Assembly (NCBI GenBank): GCA_023823795.1
Contig: CP085710.1
Location: forward strand, 4,614,001-4,678,000
DNA length: 64,000 bases
Reading direction: 5' to 3'
Origin: Bacillus sp. F19
Lineage (GTDB): Bacteria; Bacillota; Bacilli; Bacillales; Bacillaceae
The translations under genes and the position numbers were made by a program. The notes beneath the pieces were generated by a model. It was not told the origin of the DNA, did no database searches, and saw only the letters and a program-made list of their open reading frames with translations. Positions 24,269-40,413 of this stretch are shown here, piece by piece; within the stretch, counting starts at the first letter, position 1; every line of letters begins with the position of its first letter.

Positions 24269-24376
24269 TAATTATTTTCTTAAGTTATAGAAAGTGTGGA
24301 TTCCATCGTATCTAGCTGTGTCACCAAGCTGATCTTCGATGCGAAGAAGCTGGTTGTATTTTGCAACACGGTCAGT
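24269..24376. repeat. attL: left 108-bp repeat of the integrated element
   Basis: Matches 40306-40413 at 104 of 108 positions. The four differences are silent in the enolase frame. Longest exact blocks: 24287-24329 (the TAGAAAG...CAAGCT stretch) and the last ~34 bases. Recombination by the tyrosine integrase at 39267-40178 most likely occurred in one of these blocks. Confidence 0.92.
24272..24376 (-). pseudogene. eno: Displaced 3' end of enolase gene
   Basis: Encodes the last 34 residues of enolase (from [11 protein letters not shown] to FYNLRK) plus TAA, without start or upstream part. It is the original chromosomal 3' end, cut off when the element integrated and supplied a replacement end at 40309. 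Confidence 0.92.
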
Positions 24377-24547
24377 CTTGCATAACATGAACAAAGCTAA
24401 ATGCTGGTATACCAAGGTTTCCACAAGCAATTTCCTCGTTTATAAAGTTGTGATATTGCATAATTCAAGCACAGTTCCTTCTATTATATAGGCACTGCGT
24501 TCGTGACAATTCGATTATATCACAACAGAGGAAAATTAAAACATTTT

Positions 24548-25003
24548 TTAGTCGGCATATTTGAGCCAGTATCCTGTCCTCGATTTCCAGCCATTTTTTA
24601 TACCATACTGAATACTCCTCCGACTAATTCCCAATTGTTCGCTTGCTTCCAGCACAGATGGAAACTCAACTTCTTCAATATCGTTATACGCAATAATTAC
24701 TCTTTGTTTTTTCTCATTGCTCAATTTATTATTCAGATCAGCGGTAATGACTTTACAATTCCTTAACGAATAAATATTCCCGCCATTTATATCTTTGTCC
24801 AGTTGATATTCCTTCTTATATAATAAATGTCCATTTTCTAAATGATTGTCGATATCCTCAGTAAAGCTCCAGAAGTCATGCCATCTTTCCTCGACTTGAA
24901 CACTTTTCCCGCCATAATATTTGTAATTACTGTTACTTTCCAAATAACAACGAGCCATCATATTCTTCCATGTGCTGTACAATGGATGTTTTGTTTTATT
25001 CAT
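24548..25003 (-). CDS. AP2/homing-endonuclease-like DNA-binding protein with NUMOD1
   Basis: 151 aa. The N-terminal part (HPLYSTWKNMMARCY...YKYYGGKSVQVEERW) matches the pattern common in phage HNH/AP2-type proteins. The C-terminus (VEFPSVLEASEQLGISRRSI) is a NUMOD1 helix-turn-helix. No HNH catalytic motif is seen, so it may only bind DNA. The third ATG of a run (25003) is chosen for spacing from GGAGG. First gene inside attL, leftward. Confidence 0.7.
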   Translation of the reverse strand: MNKTKHPLYSTWKNMMARCYLESNSNYKYYGGKSVQVEERWHDFWSFTEDIDNHLENGHLLYKKEYQLDKDINGGNIYSLRNCKVITADLNNKLSNEKKQRVIIAYNDIEEVEFPSVLEASEQLGISRRSIQYGIKNGWKSRTGYWLKYAD

Positions 25004-25029
25004 CATCATTCCTCCAATAAAATAATCAC

Positions 25030-25344
25030 TTAAGCCCAATAATCGCCATAATACTCCAGTTCAAGAGATACAAATGGTACGTCCCACAGTTTATTAACAG
25101 AAGCCAAATGTTTCTTTGGTTTATATCCTTTTGATTCAAGAAAAGCATTCAGCCTTCTCCAGCAATCAGTTTGAGATCCTCCGCCTTTATTGCAAGAATT
25201 TATAAATCGGTATTCGGATATAAATTTCTTCATTAAATAAACTTCTACTTGTTTAGGAGTATGAGCAGACAATAATCGCTGCTCACGCTCACATAAAGTT
25301 ATTTCTGTTATTTGTTCGATTTTATTTAATGTAGACTGTTTCAT
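25030..25344 (-). CDS. Hypothetical protein of the element
   Basis: 104 aa, not recognised. Mixed charged protein with paired cysteines (NSCNKGGGSQTDC). ATG at 25344 with AAGGAGG 9 bases upstream. It overlaps the end of the HNH gene by 23 bases, so is translated from the same mRNA. A longer frame starting at 25536 lies inside the HNH gene and is not used. Confidence 0.65.
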   Translation of the reverse strand: MKQSTLNKIEQITEITLCEREQRLLSAHTPKQVEVYLMKKFISEYRFINSCNKGGGSQTDCWRRLNAFLESKGYKPKKHLASVNKLWDVPFVSLELEYYGDYWA

Positions 25345-26092
25345 AAACAGGTTCCTCCTTGGAATCATCTTTGAATACGCCGATACGGTTTTTAACACGA
25401 GATACTTCATGACCTTTGACGTTGGATGACCATTTGCCTTTGGTGGCGAGATATATCGCCGAATTACTTTTACAATCAGCCATATCAGTTGCTTGAGCAA
25501 CATCATAGGCGAGCTGACCATCAACAATGTAAGCAAATTCCATCATGCGTTCAAAGCATCTTGTAACGATGGAGAATACTTCATCTTCAGATAATGTATC
25601 GTAATGCGTTTGCTTCATCACTATCACGTTCCCAATGATTTGAATATCATTTGTATAGTGAATTTTTCTGCCTTGATAGCTCGACAAAGCTTCGGTCATA
25701 GTTTCGTGTCGTGCAATTACAAAACCGTTAGAATCCAGTACGATTGCTGGAGTTTTCCCACCAGTTTTTAAGCCTGTCTCATAAGCATGTTCCTGTTGTT
25801 CGCTGTAACTTGACCATTCCAAGTTTTCAACATTATTCGCACTTTTATCACCATTTCGATGATTTACTGTCGGCTTGTTTTCTAAATTCGGTATAAATTC
25901 TTGCGCCACAAGGCGATGGACGTAATATGTGTTTTTTGCTTGAATAGTGATAGCGTAATATCCAGTTATTTGCTTTGCTGATTTCCTCATAAACTCTTTG
26001 CCAGTCGTTTTATCAATGCTTTTCACTCGTCCTGTAGTTGATACAAAATAATCTTTTTTATCTGTTTCTTCAAACTTTTTCCATTGTTCCAT
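25322..26092 (-). CDS. NUMOD4-HNH homing endonuclease-like protein
   Basis: 256 aa. N-terminal NUMOD4 (EQWKKFEETDKKDYFVSTTGRVKS), then an HNH_3 domain with YYVHRLVAQEFIPN and NHRNGDKSANNVENLEW (about residues 57-100). The C-terminal extension includes a NUMOD1-like VIARHETMTEALSSYQG. Probably a free-standing homing endonuclease or a repurposed nicking/packaging nuclease. Expressed from the leftward promoter at 26138-26219. Confidence 0.82.
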   Translation of the reverse strand: MEQWKKFEETDKKDYFVSTTGRVKSIDKTTGKEFMRKSAKQITGYYAITIQAKNTYYVHRLVAQEFIPNLENKPTVNHRNGDKSANNVENLEWSSYSEQQEHAYETGLKTGGKTPAIVLDSNGFVIARHETMTEALSSYQGRKIHYTNDIQIIGNVIVMKQTHYDTLSEDEVFSIVTRCFERMMEFAYIVDGQLAYDVAQATDMADCKSNSAIYLATKGKWSSNVKGHEVSRVKNRIGVFKDDSKEEPVYETVYIK

Positions 26093-26137
26093 ATTGTTTT
26101 CCTCCTGATTTTTGTTTTCGTTTGTGATTACACGACT

Positions 26138-26219
26138 ATTATATTGAAAAATTTTTCAAGGTCAGGAAAGCTCCATCATCTTTTTGAAATTTCTTTTTCC
26201 TTCATTAAATAAGAAAAAC
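26138..26219 (-). promoter_or_regulatory. Leftward element promoter A with conserved upstream box
   Basis: Minus strand: CTGACC (26160-26165), 16-bp spacer, TATAAT (26138-26143). Upstream, a 26-bp box on the plus strand at 26194-26219 (TTTTTCCTTCATTAAATAAG then AAAAAC) closely matches the box of promoter B (28228-28252). Confidence 0.6.
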
Positions 26220-26362
26220 GCACCATAGGCACGTTCAGTTCGATCCATTTATTTCAGGGTTATTATCCTATTACTTAACTATCAATCTATCAATGCTCGT
26301 CATTTACTGCGTAATGGTGATAGGATAAAATGGTATAAATACCATAAACAGGAGGAGTTTTG

Positions 26363-39145: not shown

Positions 39146-39157
39146 TTTCCTGCTCCT

Positions 39158-39185
39158 TTGCAATCTAAAGAGCATTTGCTATAAT
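39158..39185 (+). promoter_or_regulatory. Promoter for a candidate antisense RNA
   Basis: TTGCAA (39158-39163), 16-bp spacer, TATAAT (39180-39185), pointing away from the Rep-like gene across its leader. Confidence 0.5.
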
Positions 39186-39191
39186 TGGGAA

Positions 39192-39262
39192 TAGCAAAGC
39201 CCTTATGGGTTTTTGTTGGGAAAACGTGTTCTTGGTCGCCAAACTGAGGAACACGTTTTTTA
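39192..39262 (+). ncRNA. Candidate ~70-nt antisense RNA in the Rep-like gene leader
   Basis: Begins ~7 bases past the TATAAT and ends at a terminator AACGTGTTC / GAACACGTT followed by T6. A second small hairpin AGCCC-TTAT-GGGT-like lies at ~39198-39210. The hairpin loop region contains TTGG-TCG-CCAA, and the sense loop would expose TTGG, a U-turn-type sequence known from plasmid antisense control loops. Confidence 0.4.
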
Positions 39263-39266
39263 TTTT

Positions 39267-40178
39267 TCATTTTAAATTCATTAAAGGGCTTGTCCGCTGA
39301 GCCATTTCCAAAATGTTTTCTGTTTCAATCCCCTGAAGATACCGCTTAGTAACTTGAATATTTTCATGTCCTGCAATTCTTGAACAGCTGTATAAATCCA
39401 ATCCATTTCTCAAATTTGCTTGGATCGAATAATGTCTAAGCGTATGTGGACTACAGCGAATTTCCTTTCTTACTCCTGCTTGCTTCCCTGCATCTCTAAC
39501 CACATTTTCAATTTGCACAGTTGTTAAATATCTGCCACTCCGAGATAAAAAGTAATTTGCATACTCCAGTTTCTTATTTTTGAAATATCCTTCTTTAATT
39601 CGCTCATATCGAATCATGTACTTCCGCAGCATTAAACTAATCGGAACGTACCTCCATTTAGCTCCTTTGCCAAATATTTTCAAATTCGTTTCATTAATCC
39701 AGCCAGTTTCTAAATTGATTAATTCCGAACAGCGAATACCAGTGTCAGTGAACATGGCAATGATTAATTTATTTCGTGCATTGAGATACGTTTTAAAATC
39801 GTAAGCTTCAATCATTTTCGACACTTCTTTATCAGTGAATGTCTGAATAACAGTTTTATCTTCCTTCAAAAGCTTGGTACGAGCCATGATGTTTAGCGTG
39901 ACGTATTCTTCAGCGACAAGGTATGTGTAAAATGCTCTGAGGGACTTAATCAAGCTGTTGATATAAGTTGCCTTATTTCCTATGTCCATTTGATATTGAA
40001 CGAATTTCTTTATATGGACTGTCGATACATCTTCAAGCTCATTGATTTCATGAAACTCATTCAAATATTTAATCAACTGATTTGAATTATGGCTGTAAGT
40101 TTCTATGGTGCGTGCAGAATAATTTTTGATTTTTAAATCGAAAGTAAATTCTCTTAGCAAGTCTTTTATTAACAACAA
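39267..40178 (-). CDS. int: Tyrosine recombinase (integrase)
   Basis: 303 aa. N-terminal SAM-like core-binding domain (residues ~1-95; YSARTIETYSHNSNQLIKYL), then the catalytic domain with Arg149 (GIRCSEL), His245-x-x-Arg248 (HTLRH), His271 (AGHENI) and Tyr280 (KRYLQ). Catalyses insertion into the eno 3' end 130 bases away. Start is one of two tandem TTG codons (40178 or 40175, the latter better spaced from GGGGG); both lie in the T-run of the eno terminator. Confidence 0.92.
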   Translation of the reverse strand: MLLIKDLLREFTFDLKIKNYSARTIETYSHNSNQLIKYLNEFHEINELEDVSTVHIKKFVQYQMDIGNKATYINSLIKSLRAFYTYLVAEEYVTLNIMARTKLLKEDKTVIQTFTDKEVSKMIEAYDFKTYLNARNKLIIAMFTDTGIRCSELINLETGWINETNLKIFGKGAKWRYVPISLMLRKYMIRYERIKEGYFKNKKLEYANYFLSRSGRYLTTVQIENVVRDAGKQAGVRKEIRCSPHTLRHYSIQANLRNGLDLYSCSRIAGHENIQVTKRYLQGIETENILEMAQRTSPLMNLK

Positions 40179-40224
40179 AAAACCCCCGTTCGTAAGCGAT
40201 TTTCACGCTTTATAAACGAGGGTT
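40174..40224 (-). terminator. Element-supplied terminator for restored eno, overlapping int start
   Basis: Long imperfect hairpin: 40206-40224 pairs with 40181-40198 (AACCCTCG... with ...CGGGGGTT), then a T-run. It stops eno transcripts before int. The GGGGG of the 3' arm is also the only ribosome-site-like sequence for int. Confidence 0.75.
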
Positions 40225-40305
40225 AATGTATTGCTAAATTCAACTTAATGTACTACATAACTCAGAGTGTCCAAATGTGATTTGTACGACCAAGTTCAGC
40301 AGTAT

Positions 40306-40413
40306 TAATTATTTTCTTAAGTTGTAGAAAGTGTGGATTCCATCGTATCTAGCTGTGTCACCAAGCTGGTCTTCTATTCGAAGAAGCTGGTTGTATTTTG
40401 CAACACGGTCAGT
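40306..40413. repeat. attR: right 108-bp repeat of the integrated element
   Basis: Direct repeat of 24269-24376 (104/108 identical) and part of the intact enolase gene. All differences are synonymous, so the element restores enolase exactly. Confidence 0.92.

Follow-up and report, generated by a model that had tools for sequence, protein, structure and literature searches.

Results

An element at the 3' end of enolase

The window, i.e., the whole 64,000-nucleotide stretch of the Bacillus sp. F19 genome analysed here, carries a 16-kb element (24269-40413) that is bounded at both ends by 108-bp copies of the 3' end of the enolase gene, eno. The attachment (att) repeat on the integrase side (40306-40413) is the 3' end of the intact eno gene (40309-41601, minus strand), and the distal repeat (24269-24376) is a left-over copy of the enolase 3' end. 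The repeats are identical at 104 of 108 bases, the similarity stops at their edges, and their starts are 16,037 bp apart. Both encode the last 34 enolase residues and the stop codon identically; thus, the four differences are silent. Because eno is whole on the right, the element completes the gene, with the older 3' end left at the far side, 16,037 bp off. The gene adjoining eno encodes a tyrosine integrase of 303 residues (39267-40178, minus strand; Pfam Phage_integrase, E = 4.5e-22; phrog_1 integrase, 6.3e-32). A preliminary description of this DNA had already reported the end repeats and the adjacent integrase, and the comparison confirms both, the repeats base by base.

Library scans covered 20 element proteins in Pfam and 20 in PHROGs, of 24 listed, with four outside each scan. 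The head and packaging genes lie on the plus strand and include a probable TerS (30642-31181, 179 residues), TerL (31168-32931, 587 residues; TerL_nuclease 2e-21, TerL_ATPase 3.2e-17), a portal protein (33596-34897, 433 residues; Phage_portal 1.4e-70) and a prohead protease-major capsid fusion (34761-36527, 588 residues; Peptidase_S78 1.7e-40, Phage_capsid 1.3e-46). These are followed by a tail tube, or major tail protein (36596-37141, plus strand, 181 residues), and a second HK97-type capsid protein without the protease part (37217-38098, plus strand, 293 residues; Phage_capsid 2.5e-23), which is 26% identical to the first. The matches of TerL, portal, fusion and second capsid are all above the Pfam cut-offs; for the tube, the Pfam match is under the cut-off, and its identity rests on phrog_88, "major tail protein" (4.4e-34). 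The assignment of TerS is probable, given a weak match to phrog_83 (E = 0.021), the position before TerL and conservation. Capsid and tube genes are separated by 68 nt, with no head-tail connector between them, and a gene for a replication-initiator-like helix-turn-helix (HTH) protein of 248 residues (38429-39175, minus strand; phrog_1835 HTH 1e-6, phrog_391 O-like 9.9e-5, phrog_428 1.1e-4) sits between the integrase and the head genes. Thus, of the genes named in the preliminary description, TerL, portal, protease-capsid, tail tube and second capsid stand by their Pfam or PHROG matches and TerS as probable only; the replication-initiator-like gene, HNH/NUMOD genes and the connector-free capsid-tube junction come in addition.

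Surroundings were fetched for six genomes with integrase relatives (genomes and loci are denoted by G and L numbers). In two of these, eno lies directly beside the integrase relative (G449, 73%, broken; G146, 55%), and the stretches fetched for these two showed no second eno tail; in the remaining four (54%, 45%, 39% and 39%), eno is absent from the 19 kb fetched around each. The G146 locus (L060, G146:C1:390000-409000) has eno, then the integrase relative and unrelated genes, and represents another kind of eno element. Just beyond the distal att repeat of the window, there is a tandem array of more than 30 copies of 51-52-nt units (22512-24107), with similar stretches elsewhere in the genome.

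Relatives and independent integrations

Relatives were sought with TerL and with the tube. TerL matched 1,477 of 50,697 phage records, all below 60% (29.7% at best among the matches listed), and 495 plasmid records, likewise all below 60%. Among virus contigs, six TerL loci were found at 74-81%, and an alignment scan added one at 79% and ten distant ones. A pattern-based, non-exhaustive TerL scan of 84,980 species genomes yielded two close relatives, in Rossellomorea aquimaris and Neobacillus pocheonensis, both in such islands. It should be noted that pattern-based scans can miss members and that IMG/VR contigs may be incomplete. The tube matched 20 of 397 genomes of the order at E = 1e-5, namely, the own genome, G344 at 73%, and others at 35% or less among the matches listed; in a class-wide search of 398 genomes at 1e-30, the own genome alone matched. 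A tube scan of virus contigs added L083, L087, L088 and L089.

The resulting 13 family sequences, the window included, contain two subgroups: (i) subgroup A, comprising the window, L026-L032 and L034, with TerL at 74-81%; and (ii) subgroup B, comprising L079 (in G344), L088 and the fragment L083, in which the portals are 44-46% identical to that of the window. A TerL match is absent from L079 and L088 (the latter searched except for 1,392 bases), and L083 is uninformative on TerL because the contig begins inside the portal gene. The N. pocheonensis element (L091/L092, G469:C1:1271134-1288350) has identical 54-nt repeats 17,163 bp apart and keeps TerS, a split TerL, integrase and the replication gene, with no portal, capsid or tube. 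The tube is 65-81% identical in ten aligned family members, and TerS has relatives in seven other family sequences. A second capsid gene is present in the window, L026, L029, L032, L079 and L083, and none was seen after the tube in L027, L028, L031 and L088.

The relatives are integrated elsewhere. The Rossellomorea element, located at the 3' end of a tRNA-Arg gene, has 45-nt repeats (93%) that lie 15,824 bp apart, and the G344 element is flanked by 55-nt repeats (96%) at a tRNA-Leu gene, 16,058 bp apart; their integrases are 22% and 28% identical to that of the window, respectively. The R. aquimaris and N. pocheonensis elements lie outside eno, which has one match per genome, elsewhere. The distinct integrases and distinct sites indicate that the head-plus-tube block was mobilised independently, with the size staying near 16 kb.

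These observations bear on whether the element is what deletions have left of a complete prophage in eno, the outcome that the preliminary description had named as fatal to its reading, with a prophage of about 40 kb in mind. The tail, lysis and repressor genes missing from the element, the att repeats that differ at 4 of 108 positions, and the N. pocheonensis relative, in which TerL is split and portal, capsid and tube are all missing, are what decay of a prophage could leave behind. However, the same block occurs at other att sites with other integrases and at near-equal length, no core reading frame in the window is interrupted, the relatives are under purifying selection (see below), and both close relatives from the 84,980-genome scan lie in such islands, within the reach of that pattern-based search. 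The relatives thus contradict a remnant origin, which we consider highly improbable, and the recurrence of the same unusual gene set suggests a family rather than a broken prophage.

Three further observations concern gene content around the relatives. A locus in G383 (L062, G383:C1:4414000-4433000) has a 45% integrase, a 45% TerS and HNH relatives; neither TerL nor a capsid was matched within 19 kb, and the locus is possibly another type of satellite. In G344, the head genes of the element are followed by a Mrr-type restriction endonuclease, ZorD/type IV restriction-like (L079:16950-17957), likely defence cargo. The virus contigs L026, L027 and L028 carry 7-10 kb of mostly small cargo genes without assigned function, many with their own promoter and palindrome (see below), and no integrase match.

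Missing functions and the capsid-tube junction

No tape measure, tip, lysis or CI-type repressor gene was recognised among the element proteins scanned, and the sole lysis label is a phrog_1350 holin match at E = 0.096; apart from that match, these scans uphold the earlier remark that tape measure, tip, holin, lysin and CI-type repressor were not to be seen. In phages GBSV1 and SEP9, five genes separate capsid from tube, with the tape measure further along. Four such genes, named Ad1, Hc1, Ne1 and Tc1 from PHROGs, are present in the phage contig L089 (25.9 kb, six tRNAs) and in L087, a 4.8-kb contig that ends just past the tube. A tblastn search with 23 connector, tape-measure and neighbour proteins of four phages gave no match in the 13 family sequences (180.9 kb); the SEP9 and GBSV1 connectors matched almost only themselves, so for these the search is a weak test. 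Profiles provide a stronger one: those of the four connectors recovered 14 of 14 left-out phage copies, and some of them matched SEP9, GBSV1, L095 and plasmid pBGM48-3, none of which contributed to the profiles. The same four profiles produced a single marginal match in the 13 family sequences (Hc1, E = 0.01, in the headless N. pocheonensis element) and none in the window. The connector family phrog_40 was found in L087 and L089 but in none of four genomes and seven family contigs. A tube profile matched 10 of the 13 family sequences; as for the misses, L030 stops within the capsid gene, the N. pocheonensis element is headless, and L029 is genuinely without a tube. In the own genome, neither the PF10145 tape measure (the control matched 7 of 14 genomes) nor phrog_40 was found; a resident helper phage is not evident by these single-family tests, which with one tape-measure family are thin.

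One way to account for the missing functions is that they are hidden in unassigned genes, the element being a self-sufficient small virus or transfer particle. Many cargo proteins indeed have no assigned function, L026-L028 have no detected integrase, and one protein of these contigs matched the tape-measure family phrog_167 (2.5e-6). That match, however, was accompanied by coiled-coil families in the same set, with the matching member not named, and no lysis, tip or receptor-binding family was among the best 25 families per scan list. The scans of seven relatives took 76 of 84 listed proteins, and the best 25 of 35, 42 and 42 families were considered, so weak matches may be missed. Self-sufficiency appears quite improbable to us.

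The junction itself can be read differently. The element could resemble a capsid-forming phage-inducible chromosomal island (cf-PICI) that uses whole helper tails, with the tube-family protein serving, in a changed role, as a neck or stopper protein through which the helper tail attaches directly to the head. The tube gene directly follows the capsid gene, which is the usual connector position, and the annotated connector of the cf-PICI-like plasmid pBGM48-3 follows its capsid; furthermore, some neck and tail proteins share the tail-tube fold. Conversely, the tube protein matches major tail proteins over the full length, and L087, with its full connector set, has a tube to which family tubes are 64-84% identical; one would expect this match to be looser had the protein taken on a new role. 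On balance, a change of role to neck or stopper seems unlikely.

Conservation of tube and head

Between subgroups A and B, tubes are 66-82% identical, compared to 42-49% for portal and capsid. A similar pattern is seen between the satellite L034 and the phage-like L087, both from metagenome 3300005515: their tubes are 84% identical and their capsids 44%. This tube identity is the highest for either sequence, the next best being 75% for L087 and 81% for L034, and the tube tree pairs the two as sisters (support 94/95). The L034 and L087 tube genes are 74% identical in DNA, with a ratio of nonsynonymous to synonymous substitution rates (dN/dS) of 0.055 and dS near saturation. Another phage contig, L095, encodes a tube at 58% together with relatives of Ne1 and Tc1, with similarity of just 21-24% in TerL, portal and capsid, which indicates that the tube travels with the tail module and not with the head. 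In gene-pair comparisons between relatives, dN/dS was 0.036-0.266 in 13 of 16 cases (four of these with dS > 2, where the estimate is unreliable), and three cases were saturated; the highest value, 0.266, was that of the second capsid. These ratios show that the packaging, portal, protease and capsid gene relatives are under purifying selection.

A palindrome associated with the family

An 18-nt palindrome (38408-38425) lies next to the replication gene in the window and has no other copy in the own genome at one mismatch or fewer. With at most two mismatches allowed, the motif TTGAATATTAATATTCAA occurs in all family sequences except L030 and L083 (11 of 13) and is absent, at the same threshold, from phage contigs L087, L089, L090 and L095. 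Four whole genomes (about 20 Mb) contain ten palindrome sites at one mismatch or fewer, all ten within elements. In L026-L028, a sigma-A-like promoter, defined by a 16-18-nt spacer and at most three mismatches in both hexamers together, lies 5-8 nt from 27 of 32 palindrome sites, compared to 17.8% of 900 random positions; two of the five sites without a promoter are at the TerL-portal border. A regulator specific to the elements probably binds the palindrome and acts on cargo genes. The window has one palindrome site, just downstream of the replication gene, and therefore regulation there may differ. As to the binder, the small conserved protein of 65 residues encoded at 27030-27227 (minus strand; seven of the 12 other family sequences have a relative) might be proposed, which is a guess. 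A literature search for the palindrome found no report.

Other genes of the element

A paralogue of the 65-residue protein, likewise small and conserved, is encoded at 28589-28771 (plus strand). Upstream of TerS, there are genes for a 432-residue protein (28862-30160, plus strand), which has no Pfam or PHROG family match, a 34% relative in L029 and no relatives beyond the own genome among 397 genomes searched, and for a 109-residue protein (30157-30486, plus strand) with a 66% relative in L030. The distal end of the element encodes an HNH endonuclease relative (24548-25039, minus strand; phrog_2081 1.1e-33) and a homing-type NUMOD4/HNH endonuclease (25322-26092, minus strand; NUMOD4 2.1e-9, HNH_3 3.5e-9). 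An HNH endonuclease of the packaging module is among the features of cf-PICIs. The HNH/NUMOD genes of the window (24548-26092) are far from TerL, none is listed between TerL and portal, and HNH families were matched in the scans of relatives. Of six element proteins submitted to PADLOC, one was labelled, as a homing endonuclease. AlphaFold2 models were poor (mean predicted local distance difference test score 39.8 for the second capsid and 52.0 for the 432-residue protein). In profile searches of the Protein Data Bank, the second capsid matched HK97 capsids at E = 0.0075-0.0098 at best, and the tail tube gave no match.

Discussion

That the element is a capsid-forming satellite with eno as its attachment gene is well supported. 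The preliminary description had assigned it to the cf-PICIs, which, according to published summaries, occur in Bacillaceae as well and average 14 kb (PMC10803314). Indeed, in the features so described, the element is like a cf-PICI: it has an integrase, an att-flanked island of PICI size, its own TerS, TerL, portal, protease and capsid, and an incomplete tail. In contrast to cf-PICIs, to the extent of these summaries, it has no convincing connectors, a tail tube instead, a second capsid in several members and an element-specific palindrome. Because the cf-PICI definition, in its published wording, includes head-tail connectors (PMC10690885) and the 13 family sequences gave no convincing example, membership is not clean. 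The TerL and TerS that characterise cf-PICIs are present in the window (TerL by Pfam, TerS by a weak match and conservation), and the subgroup B loci L079 and L088 have no TerL match. Some cf-PICIs are reported to carry putative tape-measure genes, according to the accounts available. The capsid-forming part of the assignment therefore stands; the element appears to work like such a satellite, yet the connector test sets it apart from a standard cf-PICI. Induction by a temperate helper, whose tails are then used, also belongs to the description of cf-PICIs; the companion claim that helper tails are used here is probably only partly right, because the element encodes a tail tube.

Other systems offer partial parallels. 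Phage-inducible chromosomal island-like elements (PLEs) are described as the first satellites known with chimeric tails, in which their own tape measure, chaperone and baseplate hub are combined with phage capsid and tube (PMC12987554). As far as this description goes, the likeness is that a satellite supplies part of a chimeric tail, predicted here from genes; the difference is that the present family encodes capsid and tube itself and has no recognised tape measure, a complementary set. A PLE-type tape measure was not matched by window proteins in Pfam or PHROGs, nor by tblastn. The Streptomyces satellites MulchRoom and MiniFlayer likewise have their own capsid and packaging genes and, as described, differ in virulent helpers, direct terminal repeats and, in one, a tail fibre (PMC10690885). 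Plasmid pBGM48-3 of Lactiplantibacillus pentosus (NZ_CP016494, 11.9 kb) has the same order of TerS, TerL (29.6%), portal and capsid, but is circular, has a connector after the capsid and gave no tube match. The nearest heads are those of the siphophages Geobacillus GR1 (capsid-protease, 44.6%) and Sextaecvirus SEP9 (38.0%), and the nearest tubes those of L087 (72%), L089 (50%) and L095 (58%). Connector genes separate capsid from tube in SEP9, L087, L089 and L095, and a tape measure is seen in SEP9 and L089 as well; in the family, the connectors, tape measure, tip and lysis genes of a complete siphophage prophage were not recognised by library scans, tblastn or profiles. In the literature on capsid-forming satellites, to the extent that its text was available, we found no report of this head-plus-tail-tube arrangement.

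We consider it fairly probable that the element is a mobile capsid-forming phage satellite that gives head and tube to a chimeric, helper-dependent particle. Infection by a siphophage of matching tail type would trigger excision; the excised element would replicate from its own initiator and fill heads of its own with about 16 kb of DNA. The satellite would contribute the head and the tail-tube subunit, and the helper would contribute neck, tape measure, tip and lysis. The tube would be held close to that of the helper because assembly with helper tail parts is required, and the head would be free to diverge. The conservation of the tube leads us to infer that it has to function together with tail components of the helper; a chimeric tail is what gene anatomy and conservation suggest best.

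Several points weigh against this interpretation. The helper, the excision and the particle are all deduced from genes. In L029, whose integrase is the most similar to that of the window, the second capsid directly follows the first and there is no tube, so not every member depends on a tube, which counts against a general need for one. The virus contigs L026-L028 are 17.7-18.2 kb long, and 16 kb is accordingly no strict limit. The 94/95 support for the L034-L087 pair is slightly below the starred level of the tool, and other branches of the tube tree are unresolved. The DNA identity and dN/dS of these two tubes point to an old conserved matching, with no fresh exchange, and four of the 13 dN/dS estimates are affected by high dS. 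Finally, L087, a 4.8-kb fragment, may be phage or another island and could belong to a satellite with connectors.

A broader proposal, which we put forward tentatively as a possibility with somewhat less than even prospects, is that these elements constitute a distinct Bacillaceae-type satellite family with virions complementary to those of PLEs, in which head and tube would come from the satellite and neck and tape measure from the helper, the tube match would set the helper range, and a palindromic regulon would control cargo. If a family retains head and tube and has dropped the intervening neck, borrowing by satellites would be shown to extend to the neck. The second capsid gene raises the question of head size, and the palindrome provides a signature for finding further members. 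Tail-tube compatibility may define satellite-helper pairs, and the tube match would then offer a sequence-based prediction of the helper.

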